NCBI GenBank assembly: GCA_910890315.1
Contig: CAJVGD010000002.1
Coordinates: 992,001-1,056,000, forward strand
Length of the DNA: 64,000 nucleotides
Reading direction: 5' to 3'
Origin: Serendipita indica DSM 11827
Taxonomy: Eukaryota; Basidiomycota; Agaricomycetes; Sebacinales; Serendipitaceae
The translations under genes were made by a program, and so were the position numbers. The notes beneath the pieces are model-generated. The model did no database searches and was not told where the DNA came from. It was given only the letters and a program-made list of their open reading frames with translations. Positions 11,047-60,137 of this stretch are shown here, one piece after another. Position 1 is the first letter of the stretch, and every line of letters starts with the position of its first letter.

Positions 11047-12169
11047 ATGACTATTCTTGAGAAAACAGGACCATCAACTGCCGGGTCTGAATATGAGCCC
11101 AGCAAAGATGAATATCCAGCGGAGGCATGTCATAAAAACTTCGAGGTTTGAACAGATGATCTAACGCGATGACAGAAAGCATCCTATCCGCAAGAGGCTG
11201 CTGAGCTTCCCAGTTATGCCGACTCCACGCAAGCCTTGACGTCTCGCGCTCCCCCACCCGGCTTTCCTGGAGCCAGCAACTATATCTCGATGCAAAACGG
11301 ACACAGGAAGATTGATGGAGAATACACTATCGACAGCTCGCTCGACGTTCCCTCTGCTTTACTCCCGCCGCTCCCGGCTGGAACGACCGAACGACCTAAC
11401 CTGCTGTTGCACACGCGAAATGGAATGATCGAAGCAAATATTGCACTCGTTTCTGGTACCAACCAGCGAGTGAATATCAAACTTGAGACGGCCAACGGTG
11501 AAATTGAATTCAGAATGGTATGTTCGCTGATTAATTCGAACCAAAAGATCACTGAAAAGTTGATAGCCTCATCGACTCAACAGTCAGCCTTTCAAACTCA
11601 ACGCCTCGACGCGCAATGGTGAGATTTGCGTATATCTCCCACGAGACTACGCCGGACCATTGAAATATCAAACAAAGAATGGAAAGATCAAGTTCTCCGA
11701 TGCGCTGCAGCCCATGACTCGGCAGCTAACTAACGAGGTGTCTTTCGTTGGTGATTGGCAAGCAGCAGGCTTTGTTGACTACGAAAGTTGGAAAGGCGAC
11801 GAGGTTGAGGTGTACACATCGAACGGAAAGATTACCTTCAAGTACCAGGACGAATTTGGTAGACATCGAGGTGAGGAGAAAACGTTTGGACGAGGTGGCC
11901 CATTCGGTTTTGGGTGGCAACATCCCGTGCACCCTATTCATCCACATCATCCTCACCCAGGATTCCCTGGCCTTCCGGGTCGAGGTAATCACTGGGTGGT
12001 GGGTCACCCTTCTCGTCCACCATTCCCAATGCTCGGGCGGCCTGGCCTCCCTCCGTTTTCACACATGGACCCTTACCATCAACCTCAAGCAGGCCCTGCG
12101 ACCGATAACACCAATGATGACTCAACTAATGGCCAAAGCTCGCCAAAGAGAAAGTGGTTTGGGTTCTAA
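11047..12169 (+). CDS. DUF7330-type protein, copy 1 of a tandem triplet, with His/Pro-rich tail
   Basis: Exons 11047-11124, 11176-11517 and 11567-12169 give 340 residues. The first intron (51 bp) has a GC donor (GAG followed by GCATGT). The next GT option would leave only 30 bp. The core repeats what is seen in the two following genes: YTIDSSLDVPSALLPP, LHTRNGMIEANIALVSG, VYLPRDYAGPLKYQT, then GDWQAAGFVDYESWKGDEVEV and GKITFKY. I recognise this as the fungal DUF7330 domain. No biochemical role is known to me. Unlike its neighbours, this copy has a roughly 90-residue C-terminal extension rich in His, Pro and Gly. No signal peptide or membrane segment is seen. The same intron positions and phase in all three genes show they arose by tandem duplication. 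Confidence 0.8.
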
Positions 12170-12439
12170 TTTCAGCAACCCATAATGCGATTTCACACTG
12201 GGAAACCACTTGTGTAATAATGTACCTTGTACTGAAACCTGATTTGTTGTGCAATACGATAAAGGTGAACTACGTCCGTAGTTTCGCTGCGTGCCCAGCT
12301 TTACTGAATTGTTTGACCGCAGCCAGGGATAAGATGATGCCGGCTGCGTACATAAGCGCTAGCACCCTCGGCAGATAGATATATTGACCCTCTGGCCGCC
12401 CACTACAAGCTCTTGGCCTCGACCACATCCAGACCTATC

Positions 12440-13425
12440 ATGACCATTACCGCCAAAGACGGTCCATCGACCTCGGATTCAAAGGCACCGTTCAACTCGT
12501 CTGCAGAGGTTTGTTCTTCTTCAACTCGAATGTCGTGAGAATCCATAGGCAACGTGTCCTGACGGTTGGGCTTGCAGATTGAACAAACAGACGGTTCACC
12601 CGCTCAAGCACCCCCAAGCTACGCTGAAACGCTCGGGAATTCGACTTCAGGTCCTGGTACGGGTGCTCCTCCTGCGGGTTTGGCCATACCGGAAGTGCCA
12701 TTGCCAACACCTCTACCCCGTGCAACGAATTATCATGCAGAGAAGACAAACCGGGAGATCAAGGGTGTATACGTACTCGATACGGCAATGCAGATCCCCC
12801 CCGCCATTTTGGCTAACATGTCCTCGGGGTTCTTTGGACTGGGAAAAAAGGAACCAGAGAATTTGAATCTCTACACGAGTTATGGACCCATCGAAGCCGA
12901 TCTCATCCTCGTCAGTGGCGAGCAGCAGAAAAGAGTTACTGTTTTACTCGAAACTGGAGGCGGAAGGTCGATTTCAAGCTGGTCAGCTTCTTCTCCAATC
13001 CAGTTATATATGTTTTGCTAATCATTAGTCGTTGGTAGCTGTCGAGAATCAACGCACAACCCGTCAAAGTGAAAGCAAAGTCTGGCTATGGCAATATGAC
13101 CGTCTACCTCCCACGCGACTTCAATGGTCCACTAAAATACAAAACTGGGTGGGGCACCGTCACGTTTAGCGAGGGCATGAGACCGTTTGTGCACCAGTTC
13201 TCCGGCAATATGGGATATCTTGGCGATTGGAACGTAGCTGGATTCTCGGATTACAAGACCTGGAACGGTGATGAGCTTGAAGTGGTTACCCAGGGCGGAA
13301 ACATCACGTTCAAGTGGGCCGATGAATTGATGCAACGTGAGGCGGGAAGTCCAGAGGAGAAGTTTCATGAAGCCATCACGTATGCGATGCAGAGCGTCAT
13401 GAGCTGGTTTGGGGGTCGCAAATAG
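12440..13425 (+). CDS. DUF7330-type protein, copy 2, with a one-base frame slip
   Basis: Exons 12440-12508, 12578-12981 and 13039-13425. The order of blocks matches copies 1 and 3: GVYVLDTAMQIPPAIL, LNLYTSYGPIEADLILVSG, VYLPRDFNGPLKYKTGWG, GDWNVAGFSDYKTWNGDELEV. At about 12957-12966 the frame leaves the family pattern. The paralogs read E-T-x-N-G-E-I-E-F-R-M or the equivalent, and here the same columns are recovered only with one extra base. The three exons sum to 860 bases, one short of a whole number of codons, which agrees. Either this copy is a young pseudogene or the assembly lost a base in a G-rich run (GGAGGCGGAAGG). Confidence 0.75.
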
Positions 13426-13672
13426 ATTACTGGTAATAATCCCTGTCGACGTGGCTATCTATTGGATGTAATTTAGTGTACACTTCGAATATTCGATGCA
13501 AATCTCTCGGAATTGACAGGGTCATGTTGCCTGAGGGCGCAGTCGGCCCTAGATCTGCGGACCGCAGTCTTTACCAGCATACATTCACAAGACGACAAGC
13601 GCGGCTATAGGCGACGTAGCTTGGACTCTTCCATATCCACAGCCCACAAAACATCTGTCGAATAACTACAAC

Positions 13673-14592
13673 ATGACGCTTATGGCCAAGGATGGTGCGT
13701 CTACGTCGGGAGACGACGACTTGAAGTCGCCTCTCTCTTTTCAGCCGGTTGGAGACCCTTTTGCTGCTATAAATTGATATAATAATATATTTTATTACAT
13801 AGGCACCTCAGAGCGATATCTCAGCGCCCCCACCACCAAGTTACGCAGAAACCCTCACGAGCCCGGCGAGTACATCACAAGCCCACGAAGTGCCCGCAAA
13901 TCTTGGACCATTGCCCCCTCCATCAAACTATAATGGCCAAAATGCGACTGGACCTATCAAGGGTACTTGGGTAATCGACTCGTCAATGGAGATTCCTGCG
14001 GCGTTTTTACAGCCGAGTGGATTCTTGAACAAGAAGAAGGATATGGATAACCTAAACCTCTCAACGTCGTACGGCAGCGTCAAGTCTTCTGTCCTTCTCG
14101 TTTCTGGAGAACGAAAGCGCGTGTCGGTTAATCTGTTCTCGCAATTCGGGAACGTCGAATTTAGACTTGTGAGTGAATCTTCTCCATATATACATTACTT
14201 AGCGTCTAATTGTTGGTTGGCAGCTCTCACGCGTGAACGACCAGCCCCTCAAACTTACCGCCAAAACGCAAAACGGCAACGTCGTGGTCGTTTTACCGCG
14301 CACATTCAGTGGCCCATTGCGATTCAAGACGGGATGGGGAAAAGTAACGTTCTCCAGCACCATGACCGCGCACCAATTCAGTGAGAGCACGGCGTATTTG
14401 GGTGATTGGACACGAGCAGGATTCCAAGATTACAAGACATGGGAGGGTGACGAGGTCGATGTATCTACGCAGTACGGGGATATTCGCTTTTTGTGGGTAG
14501 ATGAGGATACAGGCGAGTCGTCGGATGCTGGAATTGGGAGTATGATTACGGGGTTCTTTGGGGGCCTCAAGGGCATGTTTGGAGGTAAATAA
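13673..14592 (+). CDS. DUF7330-type protein, copy 3
   Basis: Exons 13673-13747, 13803-14168 and 14224-14592 give 269 residues, fully in frame. Key blocks: GTWVIDSSMEIPAAFL, LNLSTSYGSVKSSVLLVSG, RVSVNLFSQFGNVEFRL, VVVLPRTFSGPLRFKTGWG and GDWTRAGFQDYKTWEGDEVDV. The C-terminus ends in a short Gly/Phe/Met-rich tail (GFFGGLKGMFGG), unlike the long tail of copy 1. The N-terminal 45 residues (Pro/Ser-rich, containing PPPPSYAETL) resemble the same region of copy 2 (PPSYAETL), so copies 2 and 3 are the closest pair. The first intron is unusually AT-rich. Confidence 0.82.
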
Positions 14593-19217: not shown

Positions 19218-22200
19218 CTAGAAAGCCTCCCAGTTGACGTCTGCGTAGTCGTAGTCCCAGTCTGCAACGCCAAAGTCGTCATTCTCGTCTTCCGAAAACT
19301 CTTCTTTGTCGTTGTAGTGGTTTCGATGTGGTCTTGTCTGATAATTCGGTCCTTGTTTGCCTTTACGACGTCGAGACTAGCCTTGTTGCTCGAAGATGCT
19401 TGATCTTGGTTTGCCGAGGCCTGCTGTCCATTTTTTCGACGAGAAGTTGATACAATGGGCCTTCCTGCCGAGGATCCAGACCCAGACAGGGTGAGAATTT
19501 GGTAGCTCCTCCACTTGCTCTCCGCCTCCCCAGCCAACCTCGACTCCATGAGCATGACGAAGGTCACGACGACCGATTCCGTTCTGATCGTGCGCGTCGT
19601 TCATCATGATCGCAAGCTGCCAGCCATCGTCATCTTCCGCTTCGCCCCAGTTAATGAGCCCAATACTTCCATGTACCCGCGTCATGTGCTCATACACACT
19701 CTCCTTATCCACTTCCTCAAACGTCTTGCCGCATGTCCAACAGATATGAACACCACAGCGCGAACACCGAACATGTGCGCACCCGCCATCTTTGAGGAGC
19801 CCCATGCGGCATTTAGGACACGTTCTTCCACCAAAGCTCTGCACGAGCTTTTCCGCCTGCTGCGCTTCCTCCTCGAGCACACGCTGCTGCTGCTTTTTAT
19901 ATTGAGCACACGATTGTCCATCATGTCCACCTTGAGCAAAGCAAATTGGACAAAGTTTGACTAGGCAGCTAGGACAATGCTGGGCGAGTGTCGACGTCCA
20001 CGCGCTGTTGGGATGAACAGCATTGGCAGCAGGGGCCTTGGCGGGATCGGCGAGTATGCGAAAGATTTCAGGACAGTCGCTAGTAGGACAGTGTCGAAAT
20101 TCGTCGGGTCTGGAGTTGGTGTATGACTCAAAGCTGCGGTTCATCGCCATTTCGAATTGCTCAGGGGTGAGCAAGCGTCGGACAACCTCCAGTGGAATCG
20201 ACTTGTCACAAGACTTTTTCAAGGACTGGGTGTCTTGCGTTGGAGCGGTGCTGACGGGAGCGACCTCATTGCGCACTCCTGGCTGCCGACGACCGTGGCG
20301 ACCTTTCCGTTTGCCCTGCGGCATAACCTGTGGGTGTTGAGGCACTCGATTCGACTCTTCTCGGCTCAACCACGACTGCGCCAAAGCACCGTAAGGGGAA
20401 CGACACACCAGAACCAGGCTGCGTCGTGCATACGAGGTACCGTTTAAGACACGATTCGCAATAAGTGTGCTCACATTCTAGTCCTTCTACCGGGCACATT
20501 GCACGCTCCAAACAAACCGGACATCTAATCGTCTCCTCCGCTTCGTTGCGTGCACCATCATCACCACGGAGAAACAGGTCCAGCAACGCGTTTGGCCTTG
20601 GAGCACGTTTTTGCACCTCTTTGAGCGCGATCACAGCCCCGGTACCAGCAACGGAGATCTTACACGCCGCCGCATCCAACCAGACATTCGATTGCCCAAA
20701 TGCCGGCGCGAGTTGATTGTCTGCAGCGTGTGCATAGTACTTTAGGAGAGAACGATCAAATTCGATCGTCATCAACCGCCGCTTCACTTCACCAAGCCGT
20801 TTGACAATGCGTTCAATGGCCGTCTTACGTCGAGCAGCCGATGGTCCAAAGACGCGCAGTCGTTTGCGGCTCGACTCAACGAGGACTTGAGTTTGTGGCG
20901 GAAGAAGCGCAGTGTCCACGATCTTGTCAAGATTGTACAAAAAGTCGAGTTCGTCGTCCCACAGTGGCTGGCTTTGGGCAGAGTTGGCACCAGGCAACAT
21001 GATGATCTCTCCCACGAGAATTGCATCAATCATGGGTTTGAATGGTCTGAGATTGGCAACGCCACTTATTCGGACGTAGCGATATGCTTGCTGACCCTGA
21101 GGGATGGTAATCTGCAGTCGGAGATGTGCGGCAGCAAGCCGTGTGCGAAGCTCGTCAATCTGCGGGGCGAGGATGGCGAGTCGCTCGAATGTCATGACAT
21201 ACAATAGATCCTGCGATAGAACAGAGAAGAGTTTTGTGGAGCTGCGCCATGGCAGGTCGGCGATTGCCCTTTGAAACTGGGTATAAAAGTTGGAAGCAGC
21301 GACAGAGAATGGAAATACGCGATTATGGCCACACTCCCGCCTCGAACCTCTAGAGGCGCCTCTGGTGTGCTTGCGGCACTACGTTCCCGACTTTGCATCG
21401 TCGTACATGGGAGTGTCTCGCGTATATCGTGATATCTTAAACCACATTTGTGAGTTGGGCCTCCGACATTGGATGCCGACCCGGCGAGTGCACGGCTTTG
21501 TTCTTCTTCCGCCCTCGCTCGTTCCTGCTCCTCGCGAAAGAGCTGGCGTATAAACTCCATCGCCTGACCGTGGTCATAATGATCATCGAACAGTGTAACC
21601 TCGCCGTCTGGTTGATGCCGTTTCTCCAGTTCCTTTAACTCTTCTTCAAAGATCCTGCGCTCATCGTGGGATCCTGGATCGGACAAAGTCCCCTGTTCGT
21701 CGGTTTGCGACCGTTTGGTGCCTTTGAGAACATGGCAATGTCTAACACCCTCGACGAGGACAATATTCTTCGAGCGACCAAGAAAGCGTGCAAACAGACG
21801 TCTGCCAAAGAATGGGCGGTTGTTGATAATCTCCACCTCTCGACGTGCGACTCGGGGATCCCGATAGTAGAGTCGAAGCTTGGGCACCGGGATATCCACT
21901 TAATGCGCACCGTATCCGAGACCATATTCGACGACGGCTGGTCTGGAACAAGGGGGGTCGAAAATGTTGCAGAAAATGTAGACGGCAATACTATACTTCG
22001 CAGAGTTGCGTCGATGGCTCTCTCAGGGAGTGTGAGCCGTCCACCGGCGTTGAGAGTTCGAAGCGCGCAGAGAGCTTCAGCATGATGCGCGTATTGCACA
22101 TTTGCCACCAGCTCAGCTTTGCAGTTTGCATCGACCTTTTTGGGTGTCGTGGGGTCGATCTCGGTAGCCACTGTGCAAGAGACGATATTGACCTCTGAAG

Positions 22201-25017: not shown

Positions 25018-27452
25018 TCAGCGATTGAGAAAGCTCCAATCAGTGGGATCGTATGTGGCTAGATATTGCTTCAGTGGATCCGCGTCAGGTCGGTTATCAT
25101 CATACTCCGAGACCGAAGCTGGAGTCAACGCGCTCGACGCAGGTGATGGCCCAGAGTTATCGTAGCTCAGTGCTGGAGTAGGAGCATCCGAGACAGAGGC
25201 AAACGGCGAAGCAGCTTGATAAGTCGGGTCGTATAAAGCCCATCGCGACATTTCATCTCTACCGGACCCAGCGGCAGTGATCGACACCGGCTGCTGAAGA
25301 ATATGTTCAACCAGGGATCGGAAATCATCCGTCGACTGTGTATGCACGTCCGGAACCGCCATCTCTGCCATCGTCCGCTCATCAGGAAATGCGTCAATGG
25401 TTGCGTAGGCAAAGGGTGCTTTCGTTTCGTGCAGCGAGGTAGCTGGTGTAACACTAGCTGGTGGCTGCAACTCGATTTCCGATAAGCGACTACCCTTTTG
25501 GCCTTGACCAACTGCGGAGTGCGGCTCCAAGGGAAGGACGGGATCTCGCGAACCACTTCGTCGTGCCTTTTTAAGCGGTGCTGGAGCATCTTCCATGCGA
25601 CGAGACTGGGGTTTGACTGGCATTTCCATGTGCCTTTTGTACGTATTGCGACTTTGATGCCTGAAGTCTTGATCTTGGCGGGTGGTGGGCGGATTGATTT
25701 GATTGATGAGATGGAGTTGAGGGGTCGAATGTTGCAATCTATCTTGCTCTACATGCTGCGAGTCTCGCTTGCGCTTACGAGTGGCAGCATAAGTTAGATT
25801 TGAACGAATGAATGGATCCTTGGTATTATGAACACCAGGAAGACGATTTGCACTTGAAAAGTCTTGAAGTGTCTTGGCAACTTTTGGAGGCTGCAGATCG
25901 CTAGATAATGGAGCATTTGAGGGGAGTGAGCGTTGCTCAAACGAGCGTTCGGAGTTGATGGTGCTGATTATGTAAGATGTTCTTGTAGGGAGGGGCTTGC
26001 TGGTTGGTCCGTCCTGAGATGTCGCAGCCGAATGGAAAAGTTGAGCCATAGACGGCAAGACGATGTCTTGAGTAGGTGGCGAATCGGAAAGCGCAGTTGG
26101 AGGCTTTGAGATGCGCGATGGAGGGACATCGGTTGGCGGCGAAGACACGTCGCATCTGCGGCGCTTTGTAGGCGGGTAGGTATCGGGTAATCTTAATGAA
26201 GGGATTAGATTATGTTAGGCAAAACAAGCTAAACGTACTGTTGCGAACAATCATAGGCCTCCGCTGAATCCAAGTCTTTGCGTCGTCGCTTCTTTCGAGG
26301 CCGCTGGATTTCCTGTTTGACGGTAGGATAGTATGGTGACATTGGTAGTACTTCAGCGGGTTGTATATTGCTGCCTTGTCCATCCGTAAAGATGTCGTCT
26401 GCGTCAAAGTCGAGGTCAGAGAGATAGACACTCTCGGTACCTGAATCAATGTCATCATCATCTAGACTGGTAATGTCGACCTCTTTGAACATTCGTTCGA
26501 CATCAGCCCACCAAACCGGGGTAGCCATCATGTCCAGTTCGCGCAGGTACGTTCGCATGGCCACGAAATCGCGCGTCATCTCAGCCGAAAACATTCTTTT
26601 CGAGAATGCGACATTATCATCGACCTCGCGCAGTACATTAAGGCAAAGCTGCTGCATGAAAGCTAGTTTGCCGTGTGCGTACTTGTCGAGGAGTCGGGTC
26701 CAACCGCTGCTATCGCGGATTGACTCTAGCCAGCAGATCAAGTCCTCGGAGGAAATTTTGGCGCCTTGGAGCAGCATTTGGAGCTTTTGGCCGGTCGGAG
26801 GAAAAGGAGCAGAAACGTGGTCCAAAAGCCACTGACCAAGGAGGTCCCAATCTGGCTCTACATCGCTCTCATTGTCCGTGTCGTCGGTTCCGATATCCTG
26901 TTCTGGCCCTTCATCGCCGGACGAGTCGTCTTGATCGTTTGCTGGGAGCTGACGCCATGTAGCAACAGAGCGTGGTCGAGAGTCATGAGACGAAAGGTAT
27001 TTGAGCGTGTCTAACGATGGATTGTCGTCGACTATAGTTTCGTCGCTAGACGGCGTCGAGTCTGTCAGCTCTGACTTTGCTCGGATTCCTTGAGACGACG
27101 AGGGCTGAGTGAGCGTTGAGGATGGTTGATTTTTGACGTGGTTGGACTGGTGTGCTGCTGCTGCGAGGACAGAGGCCGACGCTTGTTCCAACCTGTGAAA
27201 ACCTTTGGCCATGACGGAGATATGGTGGGCGACCTGGGCAGCCAGCTGCTTCGTCTCGTGCGATACGAGGTCATTGGAGACGGCCGTGACAATCTTGTGC
27301 TTGAGCTGGTTCCATTCGACGACAAACTGGCCGACACGCTCTGCCCGCTTTCCTCCGTCGTCGTCGCCGTCGTTGTAGGCGAGTGCATCGAGCAGACGGC
27401 GCTCGACGCTGGCCAGCTCTGATTTTAGCGCATTATCGTCTGGCGAGCCCAT
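25018..27452 (-). CDS. HD1: HD1-type mating homeodomain protein with degenerate TALE homeodomain
   Basis: Two exons (27452-26239 and 26191-25018) join in phase and give 795 residues. Residues 1-100 form a helical N-terminus, as expected for the dimerisation region. At about residues 200-265 a segment reads WLLDHVSAPFPPTGQKLQML, then ISSEDLICWLESIRDSSGW and TRLLDKYAHG. This lines up with the TALE homeodomain of basidiomycete HD1 proteins (W-x-x-x-N-x-x-x-P-Y-P, W-F-x-N-x-R, R-x-G-W). The recognition helix is changed: WF-x-N-x-R is WLESIR, so the DNA-contacting Asn is replaced by Ser. The C-terminal half is Ser/Pro-rich with basic clusters (RPRKKRRRKD, KRRRCD) that could be nuclear signals. It is divergent from HD2, 86 bp start to start. 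The identification rests on the alignment plus that arrangement. Confidence 0.72.
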
Positions 27453-27538
27453 CAAGGGGTCTCGCTGTCGCCGCCAGAGGCCAACCGAGCTCAGGACAAA
27501 GACATGGGCACTGGGCGCAAACGACTGTGTCTCTGACC
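27453..27538. promoter_or_regulatory. 86 bp shared divergent promoter of the HD pair
   Basis: Only 86 bp separate the HD1-like and HD2 start codons. This is shorter than many HD-pair intergenic regions, so promoter elements may extend into the coding exons. GC-rich, with no TATA box. Confidence 0.55.
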
Positions 27539-30500
27539 ATGAAGGCGCCTGCCCGCCTCGAGTCGCTCTCGGCCATTTTGACGGCCGCAAACGACTTTTT
27601 ATCCACGCTTGAATTCTTCAACACCGAAGACGCACCACCCTCTGTCGCCATCCCCGACGAGGAGCAGCCATTGCGGCCCTTTGACCTCGAGCTGCCCCCA
27701 GCGCCCGACCCAGCGGCCAGTTTTCGCGAATTCGGTCTTGAGGAGGACACGATCGCACAAATATGCGAGCAATATCACCATCGCGCCGCCGAAATTGCCC
27801 AAAACGTCCGCGTCGAGTTCCGGGTTGCAGAGACCATCGCACGGACACCAGCCATCCAAGCTAGACTTGCAGATGTCTACCTGGGCTCCTACTTTCGTCT
27901 CGTAGGCGACTTTTATGAACAACTCATCGACGCAACTTTGGATACCCTCGCACTCCGCAAATGGGAAAAGGCATGTTGCCTCGCGCCTGCCTTTTTACTC
28001 CCGCTCAATATTAATACTTTATACAGAAACTAGAACGTAAGCTACGCAAACGAAGACAAGCGGCCAACGCGCCGCCCAGTCCGCCCTCCCCCAGCCCGCC
28101 CTCCCCCAGCCGACGCGAGCCACTCCCTGCCGCCACGACTTTACCGTCGGCTTCATCATCTCAACGATCATCCTCTTCCTCTTCACGAGCCGAGTCGTCT
28201 GGTGCCGCATCAGCCTCAACGCGGCGAAATTCCTCAGAAGCGACCAGCAACGATGAGAGTGAAGGCTCTTCGAACCGAAGCTCCTTTGACAAAGTATGAC
28301 CACATGAGTCCTCAACTGTTATCTAACCCTTCCCTCAGACCGTCATCGCGTTGCTTGAATACGTCTTCAACCGCCAGAACGGTTATCCATCCGTTGGAGA
28401 GAAGAAGCGCATTCAGCAAGAAACGGGCCTTACCTATCGACAAGTCGCCGTTTGGGTCAGTGTCTCCATTCCAATCCTTGGGCAATCGTACTCATCTGCT
28501 CTAGTTTCAAAACCGACGTGCACGAGAAAAGAAGAAAAAAGCGGAAGGCCGAGTACCTGTTCCGGTCGACGCTGAAGCCGCCATTGCGCAGATTGAGGAT
28601 GAACAGGCTCACGAGGCTGTCGTCAGCGCACCAGACCCTACCCCTGTCAAGCGGCAACGCATCCACTTCGTGCAGACTGTCTACCGGACCGAGGAATGGG
28701 AAGTCGAGGATATCCTCACCGACGAGGATTGGGCCCCATGTTTACGTGAAGTTGAGGAGGAACAGATACGGGAAATGATCAGGAATGTGAGTTGTTTCCA
28801 ACACGCTATCGCTTTCAGAAGACTCATTTGCAAAGAACGAGCTCCCTGGCCTGGATTCGGCAGAGCCTCCAGCTAGCAGCTGGCCCGCTCCGTTTGTCAC
28901 GCCGCGGTACGAGTGGCCTACCTTTCCACCCCCAGAGTGGCCCCGGACACCTAAAGAGGCACTATCTGAACCAGAGCTCCCAGCGGTGACGTCGGAAGAT
29001 GTCGACGAACTGACTGATATGTTTGCCAAATTCTCTCCAGACATCATTAAGACGTTCAAGTACAAGCGGCGACACCACATCGTGATCACGCTTCCGGATG
29101 ACCCAGAAATGGCAAGAAAGGTGAAGCGGAAAATAGCGAGCATAGCGACCCCAGTGCAGAGCGACGGCCCGATACCCATGTGGGTTGCCAAACGGTCGGT
29201 CAGCCTGCTTGCCGAGCTCGAAGCCGACCTGCAAGTGTCCAAGATTCACGCAGAGACGCCTCCAGCGGTCTCAGAGGCTCCTCAAGAGCCCGCGCCTCTT
29301 GTCATTCCAACATGGGGCGATTTGCAAGCACAAATCTCAGCTACGCAACAAGAGCGTCAGGTACCGGCCATTGTGGTTACACCTCCAACATCGCGAGCAC
29401 CTCAAGCACAAGTCTTTTCCGACGAGCCCTCATCGGACGAACAGTCCTCTTCTCCCAATACGCCTCGGGATGAGGATGCAGACTTGCCTGATCATCCTGC
29501 CCTCCAAGACTCGGAGTCTATGCCAGCCTCGGACACCATTGAAGATCCTATGAAAATCCTTCCCTTTATCGGCGACATCACGGCGATCCTATGGCCCAAG
29601 AGCGGACAACATCCTGCAGCCAGCTATCATCCGCATATCCTCACCAAGGAGACTAGACAGGTGCCGATTGAACTGGACGACAATCTGATGAATGAAGCAC
29701 TACAGCGAACGCTACGAGAATGTGGTATAGAGCCGGTGACAGATCCAGTTATGGAGGATGAGAGGCCCTTGGTTTACACCAGGGGATTGAGTCTCGTTCC
29801 CAAAGTGGCCGCCCCGGTGCTCGCAGAGATTGACAGGCTCGCGGGTGATAACAATGAACCCTTGATTCCCTTGGAAGCGCATATGGCACAAGAAGGCTAC
29901 AATGATCTCGTGGATCCCTATCGCATCCTGGTGGATGACGGCCCCGAGCCACTTCCGCCCGCCGCATATGAGCCGACTCGGCGTCGTCGTAAACCCCGAA
30001 AGGAGAAGCCCACGGAGATTGCTGACATTGGTGGCATACCCATCTCGGATCTATTTGACCCACAGGGTATGCCACTACCTCTCGCGCTCCTGGAGGCTGC
30101 TCCCTATACGACTCCGATGGCCCAGGCGATTTACGATTATTGCATCCCACGAGTCCCAGAGCCACCTCGCAAGATTTTCAACCCTGTCGTCTTTTGCAAC
30201 CCGCACTTCCCAGTCCACGAGCCCTCTTACCACTATCCTTTCCACCCAATGGATCCTCCCGCTTTTCCTGAACCTCTTGAGGCGCCGCGAATGGAGCCAG
30301 CAATACTTGTCGAGCCTATACCGATTGTGCCAGCAATTCCTGTCGAGTCAGCCGAACCAGCAATACCAGCTATACTCGCCGACCCACCACTGGTAGAACC
30401 AGCACCCGCCGAACCAGAGCCATTAGTACCACCTGCAGAAGTAACGCCAGAACCAGAACCAGCACCCTTGCCAGAGCCTGAACCAGAATTGGACCTAGAA

Positions 30501-30623
30501 CCCGTCGACGATTGGACCTTTTTACAGCGTGTCATCTCGTGGGCCTGCAAGCGAATTGTTGCAACGACCACTTGGGACGTTTCCAGTACCGACCCACTCT
30601 CGATGCTCCAATATCTTGCCTGA
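27539..30623 (+). CDS. HD2: HD2-type mating homeodomain transcription factor
   Basis: Five exons: 27539-27970, 28027-28293, 28339-28455, 28505-28786 and 28836-30623, in total 961 residues. The first intron has a GC donor. Residues 1-144 form the N-terminal interaction region. A basic, Ser-rich section follows. The homeodomain spans about residues 230-285: LLEYVFNRQNGYPS, EKKRIQQETGL, RQVAVWFQNRRAREKKKK. The intact WFQNRR motif, split by an intron between W and F, is the classical DNA-recognition helix. Downstream is a long tail with acidic and Pro-rich parts, including EPEPAPLPEPEPELDLEP near the C-terminus, likely an activation or stability region. In basidiomycetes HD1 and HD2 from different alleles dimerise to switch on the dikaryon programme. 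The gene is expected to be highly polymorphic in populations. Confidence 0.87.
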
Positions 30624-34658: not shown

Positions 34659-37600
34659 ATGCGCTCCTTTGGAAGCTCTCTCATTTTACTCCTCGCATTG
34701 CGCATCTCGAGCTCTATTGCTACCGATACAATTTGCCCGACCTCTTCGTCGACGTCTGTCTCTACTGTGACCTCGACTATCACAGTCACATCGACCAGCA
34801 TATCGAGTGTATCAACTGTATCAACGTGTACGTTGTCCCTTTGCTTTCGTTCCAAGGGGTTTGACATGACCATTATCAGCTACCTCCTCCTCCACGACAG
34901 CTACCTCTAGTGCAAGCTGTAGCACACCACTTGGAAATGGTATTGCCGGAGCTAGCGACCCATGGTGGCTACAGAACATGCCACACGTCGGCACATCAGC
35001 TTTCAACCCTTCTCCTTTGTCTTACAAAGTATTCCGCAATGTCAAGGACTATGGAGCCGTAGGAGATGGTGTTACAGATGATACTGCCGTGAGTTCTCGT
35101 CCTTGATCCGAGTCGAATGGCTCCTGATTTGTCAAAAGGCCATCAATGCTGCCATTGCAGATCAGTCAAGGTGCGGACAAGGTTGTACAAGTAGTACAAC
35201 AACACCAGCTTTGGTCTACTTCCCTGCTGGAAACTATCTCGTCTCAGCTCCGATCATTCGTACGTCGCACCTCCGTATTGCATGTCCGGTACTTAGGGAA
35301 CTCAGCCTTCTACTATACCGCATTGGTCGGAGATGCTAAAAACCGACCGACACTCATCGCTGCGGCTTCCTTTGTCGGTATGGCGGTGATCGGTCAGTGT
35401 TTATCGTTGCCCATCTTCTGTTTTCTAATTCGCTGTAGATGCCGATCCTTATATTCCTGGAGGTGGCGGAGCCCAGTATTGGGTGAACCAGAACGTAACC
35501 AGCTTCCCCTCGTTTGTCACCATGGTCGCTAATCATGCCCAACAGAATTTTTTCCGTGCAGTCCGAAACTTTAATATCGACCTCACGCGCATGCCTGTGG
35601 CGAGCACTGCGACCGGCTTGCATTGGCAAGTCTCTCAAGCGACTTCCCTCTCGTTTGTCAAGGTTATCATGTCCCAAGATCCAGCCACACAGCACCAGGG
35701 TATCTTTATGGAGAATGGTTCCGGAGGTGTTTTGAGCGACCTCGAATTTGTCGGCGGAAATCTTGGCGTGTTTGTTGGGAACCAGCAGTATGTACGCCAA
35801 CCTTGCCTTACTCCATTAACCTTGCATAGGTTCACGGTACGCAATGTCAAGTTTAGCAATAACAAGATTGCTATTCAGGCTATTTGGAATTGGTACGCTT
35901 CTTCTTTGAAAGATTTAACCCACTCATCGTTTCATCAGGGGCTGGACGTGGCAGAATGTGCAGATTGAAAACTGTGGGATTGGTATTCAAATGAAGACTG
36001 GTGGTACTAGCATCGAAACTCAGGTTCGTATCTCTACTGGTCTATAAACGATATATTTACATCCTCAAAGACTGTCGGATCCGAGGTGCTTCTGGACTTT
36101 ACAGTCACCAATACCCCCATCTTTGTGCAAACCACCACCGCGCAACCGAGTAGTCTAGCTGGCTCCATCGTCATCGAGAATGCCAAACTCACAAATGTCC
36201 CGATTGCAGTTGGTGTTCAATCTGGAGCAACGGTCCTCGCGGGCTCCACCGGCACAATGACCATCGCAGCCTGGGCACAAGGCAACATTTATTCTGGCGC
36301 TCAGCCAGTTCCAAACTATGTTCAATCAAATATCACCCCTCCAGCGAAGCCCGCCTCTCTCCTCGACTCGTCGGGCAAGATCTTTGGAGTGGGTAGGCCA
36401 CAGTATGAAAACTACGCGGCTAGTCAATGTTTGTGTCAATTTTGCTCCTTGGAGTGTCCTGATGTCTCTATTTTAGTCGTCAGCGTCAAAGCTCATGGTG
36501 CCAAGGGTGATGGTGTCACGGATGATACTGCGGCACTCCAGAGCATCTTCGATACCTATGCCGGATGCAAAATCATTTTCTTCGACGCTGGTAAGAAATG
36601 TATTGAATCCATGTTGGCAGTACTGACTGGAACAAGGAACCTACCTCGTCAGCGATACGATTAATATCCCCGTCGGTACCGACATTGTTGGAGAAATGTG
36701 GTCGCAAATCCTTGCAAAGGGAACCAATTTCAATGACCAGAATAACCCACGTGTCGTTCTCAAGTTTGGCAAGTCTGGCGACGTTGGTTCACTCAGGGTG
36801 TCGGATATCGTTATCAGCACCTACGCTGGTTCTGCGGGTGCAATTGTTATGGAGGTCAATATCAAGCAGGCATCTCAAGGCTCGGTTGGTTTCTGGGATA
36901 CAGTAGGCTGTTTTCTTGCTCTGGTATCCTTGTGGCTGACTGTAAACTAGCATGTTCGACTTGGTGGATCAGCTGGAACAGGACTCACGCAGACGACATG
37001 CCTCAAGCTCCAAGGTCATGGGGTCGAGTGCTCTGCTGCGTTCTTGAGTGCGCATATTACCCGTGGTGCATCTGCTTACATGGAGGTCTGCTCTCATATC
37101 CGGCGCTCGAGTCATTCCTGATACCTATTTTACAGAACGTCTGGCTCTGGACTGCTGACCATCAGCTTGATGATGATCCTGCCGAGTCTCAAATCGATGT
37201 CTTTTCTGGCAGGGGAATCCTCATCGAGGGCGAAAATGTCTGGCTCGTCGGTACAGGGTCAGAACATCACGCTATATACCAGTACAGAGTCAACGGCGCC
37301 ACCAACGTCTACATGGGGCTCATTCAAACGGAGACACCCTACTATCAGCCTAACCCTGGTACGCAGTTCGAAACCGGCCATACCGTACCTGACACTTCAT
37401 ATCAGCTGCGCCGAACCCATTCGTTACAAACTCTGCATACTCGGACCCAGACGTCTCCTCTCTGAAATCCGCGCTTGCGCTCTCAGTCACCAACTCCGAT
37501 CACGTTCTCATCTACGGCGCCGGATTGTACAGCTTTTTCGTTTCATATGCACAAACCTGCCTCCAGACGTGGAATTGTCAGGACCAGATTGCCTCTGTTG

Positions 37601-55402: not shown

Positions 55403-58400
55403 CTAGTCGTCGTCCCCGAACATTATACGTAGGTTCTCTATGCCTTCGGAGGTCGAACTGTCGGTTTTACCGAGGGCAAAGGATACTATGGCTGTTTTCC
55501 TCTTCTGTATCTGCAGTATCCGATTCTCGACGCTGTGTGCAATGATATAGTGTTTGACGAACACTTCTTTCTCCTGACCAAGGCGGTGAACGCGATCGAT
55601 GGCTTGCCTGTCAACGCTCAATAGTCAGTCACAGATGGTGCATGCACCTACTGTTCTATAGCGGAATTCCACCAACAGTCTATCTAGTAAATTTAGCTGG
55701 AGTCACTTTGAGATGTTTCACGCACCATGAAGACGTGATTTGCAGAAGTCAGATTGAGGCCTTCACATTCCATGAGAATGAAAAACGAAAAGTCCATAAC
55801 TAGCGTGCTCACCAACACCGCCTGCTCTGAGAGATATGATAAAGACCTTGGGCTTGTCGCTGGGTTCACTGAATTGCTTAAGAGCCTTGACTCTTGCCTT
55901 GGGGTCCATGGAGCCGTCTAATCTGTACCATGGGAATCTGTCTCTCTCCAACGCAATCTCAATAAGGTCCAGGAATCCTGTAAACTGGGAGAAAACAATG
56001 GCACGGAACGTCGAGTCCTGTTCCCGTAGTCGTCCTAGCAAATCAATAAGAAGGGGTTCGATTCCAGCAAATGACCAACTTACGAAGATCTCGCAATAAA
56101 GCGTCAAGCTTTGTCGACGACTGAAAGTTGTTCTTTCGGAAAATGACCTCGACCGACGTTTCTCGCATGGGCTCATCTGGATCACCATCTGACTCGATCA
56201 TTTCCTGCTCTAACATGGTCGCGTCCTCGTCTGTATGGGAGGGAGACCGACGGCGCGTAACCTCGGGTTCAGGAGAGGAGTCGGAGGCCGCTGAGCCCTT
56301 TGCCTTTTTCGTCCTGAGTACCTCCACAAGGTCTTGAACCTGTAGATCCTGTGAGTATTTACCACTACAGATCAGTAACTCACATGTAGAGGACCCTTGC
56401 GGCAAATGGGACACGAGCCCTCTTCTTTCTTGGCCAGACACTTCGAGAGATGATCCGTAATGCAGCCCATACACATTGAGTGCATGCAGAGAGGCGAGAG
56501 GACTGGTGGATCACAGATTTCCATGCAAATAGGGCATTCTTGCTCCGTCTCTTTTTGAAGTGCCACTGACAGTTGGGCATATGAAGTTGTGCCATCGCTG
56601 CCATTTGCACGACTACCGTTCATATACTCTGCGATCAGATCGTTGACATCCACTTCACCGTCTCTGTCGGCATCCAGGTCAATGCCACTATTCCCGGCAG
56701 CAATCAGAGAAGGGTGCAAGACAGCACGTCTTAGCCTAAATGAAAGTGTCATACAATCTATTCGATCATTATGTGTCCCGTACCGCATCAGAAGAGCAAA
56801 GAGCGAGTGCCAATTCTTTCCAACAACGCCCCTTTCGTCCAAAGAGGTGAACGTCGATTTAACCCTGTGATAGATTTGGTCGTAAATTTTCCTTTCGAGA
56901 GGAGAGAATTCCAAAGTCTCTACAGTTACCTGTTGGCGTCAGACACCAGCAGCGGACCTTGGGAACGATATACCGTCTTTGCAGGTAGAGATACGATGGG
57001 GTTGCCTTCCTTATCTTTCATACTCTTCTCACGTCGCAGTAAGATGCTTTCCAAGATCACTTGAACAATGTCGAGCGCTTTAGAGTCTCGCGAAAGAAAC
57101 GGTATGGCTTTGGCCGCATTAAGAAGAATCTTTTACGATGCCAAGACTCACTGATAAATCTAAATCTTGTTAGTTTACATAAAACGGACTCTATTTGAAG
57201 ACTTACGATCGGAAAAAGGGATATTCGGACCAGGGCTTGAATTGCAGGAAATGAAGCAAACTTTGAAGGTCTTCTAGACGGTTCACAATCGGTGTTCCTA
57301 GAAGTGAGGTGAGCCGCCAAAGGTCTTTCAGCAAATAGTTATCAACCAGTTAGCACCCAGCGCCGTTGTCCATCCAAAGCATATGCTGCCTTTGCTGTTT
57401 TGCTGATACGGGACTTGATATGGTGAGCCTCATCGAGTACTGATGCTATTCTCAGGTGTGGGACATTCGAGGGAAACCAAGGACAAACCTATACGGAACC
57501 ATCGAGCTAAAGAACTAAGTATATAGGGAGCGCGGTCAACTCGAGACACTCACTCTCAAAAAGAGACGAGGTGACGCTCTTTTGTTGCTTCGCATGCTCT
57601 GATGCAAGAACTCCATAAGATGTGATGACCACATCGACATCCTGGAGGTCGCTTGATAGTGGTGCTCTATTCGATCCGTGCCAAATTAGAGTAGAAAGCG
57701 TGTGCCGCTTGCTTGCGCGTTGAAGCTCGCCAGCCCACTGTGATAGTAGAGATGTAGGTACGATGACCAGAGTAGCACGACTCTGAGTATTGCTCTGTCT
57801 CGAGACAACTTTTGCTCTGAATGCACGATCGATGGATAGTTGCTTGATTTGTGGTTTGCTAGACTCGGTCGAGGCCTTCTCACCTCGCCTTGCAAGGTCT
57901 TGAGCACTGGCCTTGACAGTGTGAATCAATGCAGCTATCTGTATCGTCTTTCCTAATCCCACTTCCTAACAGTCAGAGTATGTCTACATGTATAAACGGG
58001 CTTACTCTCTGCAAGAAATTGACGTGCCATGATCTTTGAGCGACGGGTCCGCAGCCTACGACGACTCACCATCACTAAAGATATGAGCTTTCCGCGGTCA
58101 CACACAGATTATACTCACGCTAAAATACCACCCTTACTGTGTGTAGTCGATTTAGGAAACTCCAAAGACAGTTCTCCAGAATACGGATTAAAGTAGAATG
58201 GTCGCTCATCTCCAGAGAGATCAATTACGCCGTCATCAGAAGGCTCGAATGGAAACGCATATCTGTGGCTTGATGAGTTCACGGCCATGCTAGCATGACA
58301 CACGCACTCTTGCCACAATGGATGCATAGATCTAGAGCTTCGAGCTTCATAAAGACCTTCCTCCATTGATTTCATCCATCTGCAACTTATGAGACAAGTA

Positions 58401-59709
58401 GGCACCGGTGTGCTATATTCCGCACGTACTGGAGTGCCTGTAGAGATTGATGTGGTTGAATGGATGCGCCCCATGCACAGCTTGAGAAGCATAAGGATAC
58501 AGGGACGTACCTGTTTCTGATATGGTCGCAAAGTCATACGAAAACTATCCACAGGTTCCATCTCTGGTAGATTGAGGTCGTTCTTCTGTGCTCTAAGCTG
58601 ATGAGCAACTGAACACCGGAAAATAATACTCACCTCTTGTAAATCAAGTCCAAGTCGTTCTCATCTAGAGTTTCTTCATCATCTTCGTCTATCTCAACCT
58701 CTTCCATGTCTTCTCCCTCTCCTATTATTTCAATTCTCTTCTTTTGGTTCGCTCTAGGTGCAGAACGAGGCTTCACTTTCTCCAAGGAGCGTTCTGATTT
58801 CAATTGGGACGTCGAACGGGGCCGAAGGCCAACCATATCCATCAACTTGACAAGTGATTCCTTTCTTTCCCGCAACATCTTCTCTGTCGCCGTTTCTGTT
58901 CCTTCATTGAAGATCTTGTCCGACTCGTTGTCATGAAGTTCTGATGGCTTTTGAAACGCAGAGGGGGAGAAATAAGCCTTGACGGAGAGTATGATTGAGT
59001 CTCCTATCCTGATCTTCTCTGGCGCATCGACGATGACCCCAGAAAAGACGGAGAGCTTGAGGTCCAAGCAGATACCAATGAATTCTGCTACCGAAACGGG
59101 AAGCCGACCTAGCTGACTTCCGTGCTCCGATATGAAACGAACGATGTTGTCGGGCTTCTTCGAGACTCGGGACTCTTTGGACGACTTTGCCACAAACCCT
59201 GTGAGGGTCGTTTGTTTCCCTTTGGCCTTTGTATCACCCTTCTTGATAGTAGTATTGCTCTTGGATGTCTCCAGCGAAGGGCTACGTGAAATGAATACGC
59301 GTTGGCCAGCTGACATAACTTTATGACCAGAAGTCAGACTGTAGGCGTCAACGATGAATTCTCCTATATATATCCCTTCTTCCAAAGATAATTCTTCATC
59401 TGACTTCTTCGACTTGAATGGTGGCTTCGCTACTGCCGGTGGAGACACTCGTCGTTTTTTGGTCGGTGGTTCTAGGTCGGGAGATCGAGATGGACGTTTC
59501 ATTGGCGTGTTATCCTGCTTCTTTGACGTCGTAGGTTGCATTATCTCGACAATTTCCTGCTCCTCGTCTGACTCTGCGAGGAACAACGGTGGCTCAGATG
59601 GTGGCGAAGAAGTTGCAGGTTCGCTTGCCACGAAACCAGACTCGATTCCGACGAGTTCATCCTCGTTTAATGGCTCGTCGACGCGTGTGGTGTCGTCCAG
59701 AAAGTCCAT
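55403..59709 (-). CDS. RAD5: RAD5-type SNF2 helicase/RING ubiquitin ligase
   Basis: The order of domains is that of Rad5/HLTF: a HIRAN-like domain ([20 protein letters not shown]), SNF2 helicase motifs [12 protein letters not shown] (Walker A) and [12 protein letters not shown] (DEAH box), an inserted C3HC4 RING ([23 protein letters not shown]), and the C-terminal helicase half ([40 protein letters not shown]). Rad5 adds K63-linked ubiquitin to PCNA and reverses stalled forks in error-free damage tolerance. The N-terminus from 59709 is acidic and Lys-rich. Introns of about 50 bp fall through the helicase part. The 3' end is 36 bp from that of the WHIM gene. Divergent from SWI5. Confidence 0.9.
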
Positions 59710-59816
59710 CGCAGAGTCGCTGGGACCAAGCCGCACGCGTTGTTTGGCCACGACACAAACGACGACGCACTCGCACCGGCGATTGAGTAATCCTTCTGAA
59801 CCCGAATCAGTATACA
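59710..59816. promoter_or_regulatory. 107 bp shared divergent promoter of RAD5 and SWI5
   Basis: Only 107 bp separate the RAD5 and SWI5 start codons. The region is GC-mixed with no TATA box. Any element for DNA-damage or cell-cycle control of both genes should lie here. Confidence 0.5.
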
Positions 59817-60137
59817 ATGTCTGTTCAAATGTCCAAAGAAGCCATGTTGGCAGAGATTCATACACTCGAACAAGCATTGCAGTGAGTGGCCGCAGTCCAA
59901 ACACAGCAGACTAACGCGATATCAGGGGGGAAGACCCTTCAGTAATCGTTTCCCGCCATATAAAGCTCCTCCATGACTACAACGAGTCCAAAGATGCTGC
60001 ACAGGTGCGCTCATAATACCAGGGTTTTGTAGCGACCTCTTAGCTGCTTAAAGGCGTTGATGGGAAAGCTAGCCATTGCTAAAGGAACAACTGTGACGCG
60101 GCTTCACGAGAAATACCAACTGAGTTTACGTGATTAA
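59817..60137 (+). CDS. SWI5: Recombination mediator SWI5 homolog, 75 residues
   Basis: Three short exons: 59817-59881, 59926-60004 and 60054-60137, total 228 bases (75 residues). Sequence blocks: MLAEIHTLEQALQGEDPS, then RHIKLLHDYNESKDAAQALM, GKLAIAKGTTVTRLHEKY, ending SLRD. The HIKLLHDYNE-x-KD-x-x-Q-x-L-x-G pattern is the signature of Swi5/Sae3, the small partner of Sfr1/Mei5 that loads and stabilises Rad51 or Dmc1 filaments. The fission yeast protein is 85 residues, so the size fits. The exons are too short to show as open frames and the gene is easily missed. Confidence 0.85.

Follow-up and report, generated by a model that had tools for sequence, protein, structure and literature searches.

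A divergent HD1-like/HD2 gene pair as the likely MAT-A mating-type locus of Serendipita indica

A divergent pair of homeodomain genes in the genome of Serendipita indica is very likely the MAT-A (HD) mating-type locus of this fungus, whose proteins from different alleles would pair as a non-self HD1-HD2 heterodimer. The pair lies within the window, the whole stretch of 64,000 nucleotides analysed here (C2:992001-1056000; 48-53% GC), which comes from an assembly of 24.7 Mb in 55 contigs. A sequence-only reading of this DNA had proposed a classical basidiomycete HD locus, and the proposal is supported by the architecture of the pair, the homeodomain of HD2, the probable TALE remnant in its partner, the single copy of the locus and its linkage to the gene for mitochondrial intermediate peptidase (MIP). 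Among Agaricomycetes such a locus is nothing unusual, and for this species it has already been published. Two small additions to the known picture are the 33 kb link between the HD pair and MIP and the state of HD1 helix III at the DNA-contact residue, as read from the predicted protein.

The HD1-like gene on the minus strand and HD2 on the plus strand stand head to head, with 86 bp separating the two ATGs and stop codons at 25018 (HD1) and 30623 (HD2), so the earlier description of head-to-head genes 86 bp apart proves exact at both stops and across the ATG gap (Table 1). The A mating-type HD1 and HD2 genes of Coprinopsis cinerea likewise form a divergent pair. Both models are predictions, their junctions placed by hand from reading frame and splice signals, and neither open frame holds a further in-frame ATG upstream. 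HD2 intron 1 (27971-28026, plus strand) is best read as a likely GC-AG intron, because the GT donors at 27903 and 27975, weighed by hand, run into stops. A coding-frame (codon) statistic, for which three long window ORFs served as the training set, peaks in the proposed frame for six of the seven HD1 and HD2 exons, and the two HD1 exons score 0.134 and 0.137 in frame against at most 0.042 in the other frames. The exception is HD2 exon 2, which is short, rich in proline, serine and repeats, and scores 0.096 in frame versus 0.147 in another frame; it holds the sole tandem repeat reported for the window.

Table 1. Positions of the HD gene pair, its protein features and the start of MIP, in window coordinates
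Feature	Position	Strand	Basis
Gap between the HD1 and HD2 start codons, common 5' region	27453-27538	.	Joined gene models
HD1-like mating-type gene, 795 aa	25018-27452	-	Open frames, splice candidates, coding statistic
HD1 exons	27452-26239, 26191-25018	-	
HD1 intron (47 nt, GT-AG)	26238-26192	-	
Remnant TALE homeodomain of HD1, residues 199-258, EPDWDLLGQWLLDHVSAPFPPT...DLICWLESIRDSSGWTRLL	26679-26858	-	Pfam, BLASTP
HD1 basic cluster RPRKKRRRK, residues 384-392, candidate nuclear localisation signal	26277-26303	-	Function inferred
HD2 mating-type gene, 961 aa	27539-30623	+	Open frames, splice candidates, coding statistic
HD2 exons	27539-27970, 28027-28293, 28339-28455, 28505-28786, 28836-30623	+	
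HD2 N-terminal helical region, residues 1-144; candidate dimerisation/allele-discrimination region	27539-27970	+	AlphaFold2 model
HD2 homeodomain, residues 227-282	28273-28534	+	Pfam PF00046; PDB homeodomain matches
MIP, first codons	63976-64000	+	Peptidase_M3; first in-frame ATG of open frame

The homeodomain of HD2 had been called intact, and it fits the typical 60-residue kind, matching Pfam PF00046 at E 2.9e-15 (56.3 bits; cut-off 22.9) as well as homeodomains in the PDB, where 106 sequences reach E <= 0.001 with the HD2 segment and homeodomains are found among the best 60 of these 106. Helix III reads WFQNRRAR, and two introns interrupt the domain, the second falling between the W and the F of this motif. 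For the N-terminus modelled alone with single-sequence AlphaFold2, the best of five models has a mean pLDDT of 73.8, the other four ranging from 45.9 to 54.7, and contains long helices at residues 69-100 and 104-143. These predicted helices are as expected for a dimerisation region, a role that known HD proteins would suggest for them. In genome_contigs, a non-fungal collection, a search for relatives of the last HD2 exon gave 29 pattern matches, none of them confirmed.

The partner of HD2 had been described as carrying a recognisable but altered TALE domain, and the sequence agrees with this: HD1 has a probable remnant that matches Pfam Homeobox_KN below the cut-off and in which Asn51, by eye, is replaced by Ser. 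The full-length protein gives E 0.03 and 14.6 bits (cut-off 24) over residues 208-242, and a 130-residue segment gives E 0.0033 and 17.7 bits. BLASTP aligns the remnant with the ordinary TALE protein of the same genome at E 3e-5 (a single comparison; 9 of 25 residues identical), in an alignment that spans helix I to the PYP loop without helix III. Helix III of HD1, aligned by eye, is WLESIRDS within WLESIRDSSGWT; Trp48 (W241) and Arg53 are kept, Phe49 has become Leu and Asn51 has become Ser (S244), and the basic residues (arginines) beyond Arg53 are gone. This alignment uses homeodomain numbering and the HD1 consensus (WFxNxR then GWT). Asn51 is a DNA-contacting residue of homeodomains.

So modest a match might mean that the minus-strand gene is not HD1 at all and is an unrelated neighbour of HD2 that resembles a TALE protein by chance. 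The full-length E is only 0.03, a PDB sequence search with the HD1 segment returned a single match (E 0.061) and no homeodomain, and NCBIfam gave no match to residues 1-270. A single-sequence structure model of residues 197-327 has a mean pLDDT of 55.5, too weak for use, and of the 127 matches that a PDB fold search with it gave, none reaches E <= 0.001 and the best 50 include no homeodomain; the helices of this weak model, at model residues 6-16, 25-32 and 39-50, correspond in position to the three helices of a homeodomain. We nevertheless consider a chance match highly improbable, since an E of 0.03 across 24,736 models corresponds to about 1e-6 for one family named beforehand, as Homeobox_KN was for HD1, and composition shuffles of an overlapping HD1 segment matched Homeobox_KN in none of nine cases (other chance matches arose in two of the nine, at E 0.15-0.16). 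Furthermore, the matched stretch goes from helix I past the PYP loop as far as the beginning of helix III. The minus-strand gene also diverges from HD2 at close range, with no other HD1 candidate beside an HD2 match in the genome. We therefore read the gene as a probable HD1. A search for HD1 relatives among viral_contigs, a non-fungal collection, gave one pattern match and 0 confirmed, and so yielded no alignment that would back this reading.

The HD1 homeodomain scores too low for the Pfam cut-off and, as far as helix III can be aligned by eye, no longer has Asn51. HD1 could accordingly be a decaying relic, with either the locus out of mating control or HD2 acting alone, and clamp connections and sexual reproduction are described as undetected in the species (PMC3192844). 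Set against this are the two HD1 exons, which run through 795 codons without a stop and have frame statistics resembling those of coding sequence, and a report that defective HD1 homeodomains are compatible with function (PMC4101180), which together make decay very unlikely. The same report describes a degenerate HD1 in Pycnoporus cinnabarinus a1-1 and an HD1 motif that was not found in Postia placenta (PMC4101180). Like P. cinnabarinus a1-1, S. indica has a probable HD1 homeodomain visible only by alignment, a degenerate helix III motif and a complete HD2 homeodomain, but in the P. cinnabarinus protein part of helix II is deleted as well (PMC4101180), whereas the spacing of S. indica HD1 is, by eye, within about one residue of that in the ordinary TALE protein of its own genome. 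In C. cinerea, the HD1 homeodomain is reported as dispensable and the HD2 homeodomain as required, and Heterobasidion provides the mirror case of an HD2 without a bona fide homeodomain (PMC4915694). The C. cinerea HD2 is further described as having no nuclear localisation signal (PMC4915694), whereas S. indica HD2 has basic clusters, for example at residues 144-156 and 745-758. Because HD2 as well as HD1 has such clusters, the textbook split, with the nuclear localisation signal on HD1 only, is not evident here.

MIP is the classic flank of the HD locus in Agaricomycetes. In S. indica, its gene begins at the edge of the window and runs on past it from C2:1055976 onward, on the HD2 side of the pair, with 33.35 kb from the HD2 stop to the MIP ATG; the two are linked, not adjacent. 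The genome has two M3 peptidase loci, on C1 and C2. A 163-aa piece of the C1 peptidase matches neurolysin at 4.9e-38 and is neurolysin-like, and the best matches of two pieces of the C2 peptidase to solved members reach only 3.3e-14 and 1.4e-8. The C2 frames contain HELGHAMH and GRTEYGNVAGTRCATDFVE, motifs that we take to be of MIP and not of thimet type. Linkage of the HD pair to MIP is common to S. indica, Agaricus bisporus, where mip1 and beta-fg flank the HD locus and mip1 adjoins HD1 (PMC8305134), and Flammulina velutipes, where MIP of matA lies 201 bp from an HD2 gene (PMC3140503). MIP is thus on the HD2 side in S. indica and F. velutipes and on the HD1 side in A. bisporus, and its distance of 33 kb in S. 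indica contrasts with the 201 bp of F. velutipes.

Of 27 open-frame pieces selected from the window and compared with Pfam, 15 gave a family at E <= 0.01. Among the scanned pieces between HD2 and MIP are an exon with a DUF1751 match under the family's cut-off (E 0.0034), presumably of the TMEM115 family, an epimerase, an Ipi1 gene, pectate-lyase-like exons, START-domain pieces, a NAD/FAD-binding piece, and HIRAN and SNF2 exons. The pectate-lyase-like exons (Pect-lyase_RHGA_epim, 35429-36661, plus strand) probably encode a secreted wall-degrading enzyme, and the SNF2 and HIRAN matches, in adjoining open frames at 57510-59910 (minus strand) about 4 kb before MIP, probably belong to a RAD5/HLTF-like helicase. 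On the other side of the pair, a RING match at 20269-21378 fits the RBR neighbour named in the sequence-only reading, and DUF7330 occurs in three adjoining open frames at 11567-14589 (plus strand; E 1.2e-26, 6.4e-22 and 5.4e-22) that are probably tandem duplicates. Elsewhere in the genome, an exon of a phosphate transporter is identical at 246 of 247 positions to PDB 7sp5, with the sole difference at the exon end; we take 7sp5 to be PiPT. PiPT is the Piriformospora indica phosphate transporter (PDB 4J05), for which phosphate-site residues have been named (PMC6761603), and all eight of those tested in the exon are correctly spaced at one of three offsets tried; other named residues lie outside this exon. 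The transporter comparison points to S. indica (P. indica) or a very close sibling as the source of the DNA.

The HD pair occurs once in the assembly: searches with three queries (HD1 residues 1-405, HD2 residues 1-366 and the last HD2 exon) each turned up no further copy. This single allele is compatible with a homokaryon and with a collapsed assembly. PF00046 matches seven places in the genome and Homeobox_KN two, in searches run exon by exon, which may overlook a homeodomain that introns interrupt. A second, better conserved HD1/HD2 pair, which the sequence-only reading had named as one finding that would speak against its proposal, was sought genome-wide with these exon-by-exon profiles and not found. 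The stronger Homeobox_KN match, at C40:91688, is better conserved than HD1; we rejected this gene as the true HD1, as it is PKNOX/MEIS-like and none of the seven PF00046 matches lies nearby. That it is such an ordinary TALE gene also bears on whether the HD pair could be a non-mating developmental regulator, with the true MAT-A elsewhere in the genome. The distance to MIP would suit such a regulator, but the only other Homeobox_KN gene has no HD2 candidate beside it and MAT-A as published for S. indica is likewise a pair of homeodomain genes (PMC3192844), and we find this scarcely credible. STE3 receptor matches occur at seven places on C1, C13, C36, C40 and C43 and at none on C2, and because these five contigs are all other than that of the HD pair, the pattern is as in a two-locus mating system. 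Two STE3 receptor genes lie within about 7 kb of each other at C13:903985-911071, a candidate pheromone/receptor locus.

The identification of the pair as MAT-A agrees with what has been published for the species under the name Piriformospora indica. Zuccaro et al. 2011 (PMC3192844) describe two allelic mating-type loci, each with two homeodomain genes, and the locus was therefore already known. The allelic loci are on highly syntenic contigs that were too different for joint assembly, in a genome of 24.98 Mb with 50.68% GC (PMC3192844). According to the legend of Figure S5, the best match of PIIN_09915 is P. chrysosporium A1 (1e-3) and that of PIIN_09916 is A2 (1e-6), which we take as HD1 and HD2, and the legend also names ESTs for 'the putative HD1.1 and HD1.2' (PMC3192844). 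The published locus and ours, likened by their description, are of the same species by the transporter comparison and of the same two-gene make-up, and differ in the number of alleles, which is two, each on its own contig, in the paper and one in the present assembly. MAT-A loci typically have many alleles that diverge mostly at the N-termini. The sequence-only reading had predicted strong allele diversity between strains, and this already has support in the two divergent alleles of PMC3192844. The excerpted passages of that paper make no mention of an altered HD1 homeodomain or of linkage to MIP, and in the literature searched (species or order with mating, and degenerate HD1), as far as its excerpts go, the state of S. 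indica HD1 helix III and the 33 kb MIP link are unreported.

Taken with what is known of HD proteins, we infer the following for dimerisation, allele discrimination and the division of labour between the two proteins. Each nucleus would contribute one HD1/HD2 pair, and after strain fusion the HD1 of one nucleus would pair with the HD2 of the other through their N-terminal helices, while HD1 and HD2 of the same allele would not pair. The resulting heterodimer would switch on the dikaryon programme. DNA would most likely be bound by HD2 alone, because the recognition helix of HD1 is without Asn51 and the basic residues beyond Arg53. The share of HD1 would then be a partner surface, nuclear import by way of RPRKKRRRK and possibly activation.

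It is conceivable, although we lean somewhat against it, that HD1 has permanently given up DNA binding in Sebacinales and that the mating heterodimer of this order reads DNA through HD2 alone. Sebacinales is among the orders reported to contain species with only one HD class (PMC8686365). If HD1 has indeed degenerated in this way, surveys that score a single HD class, in Sebacinales and in other orders (PMC8686365), may partly miss degenerate HD1 genes, and part of such single-class counts would be overlooked degenerate HD1 genes and not true losses. For S. indica itself, a beneficial endophyte of roots that has been much studied but whose sexual reproduction had gone undetected, the analysis confirms the mating-type locus. 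It leaves the known picture of mating control unchanged and can be of use in S. indica genetics and in checking surveys of HD genes.
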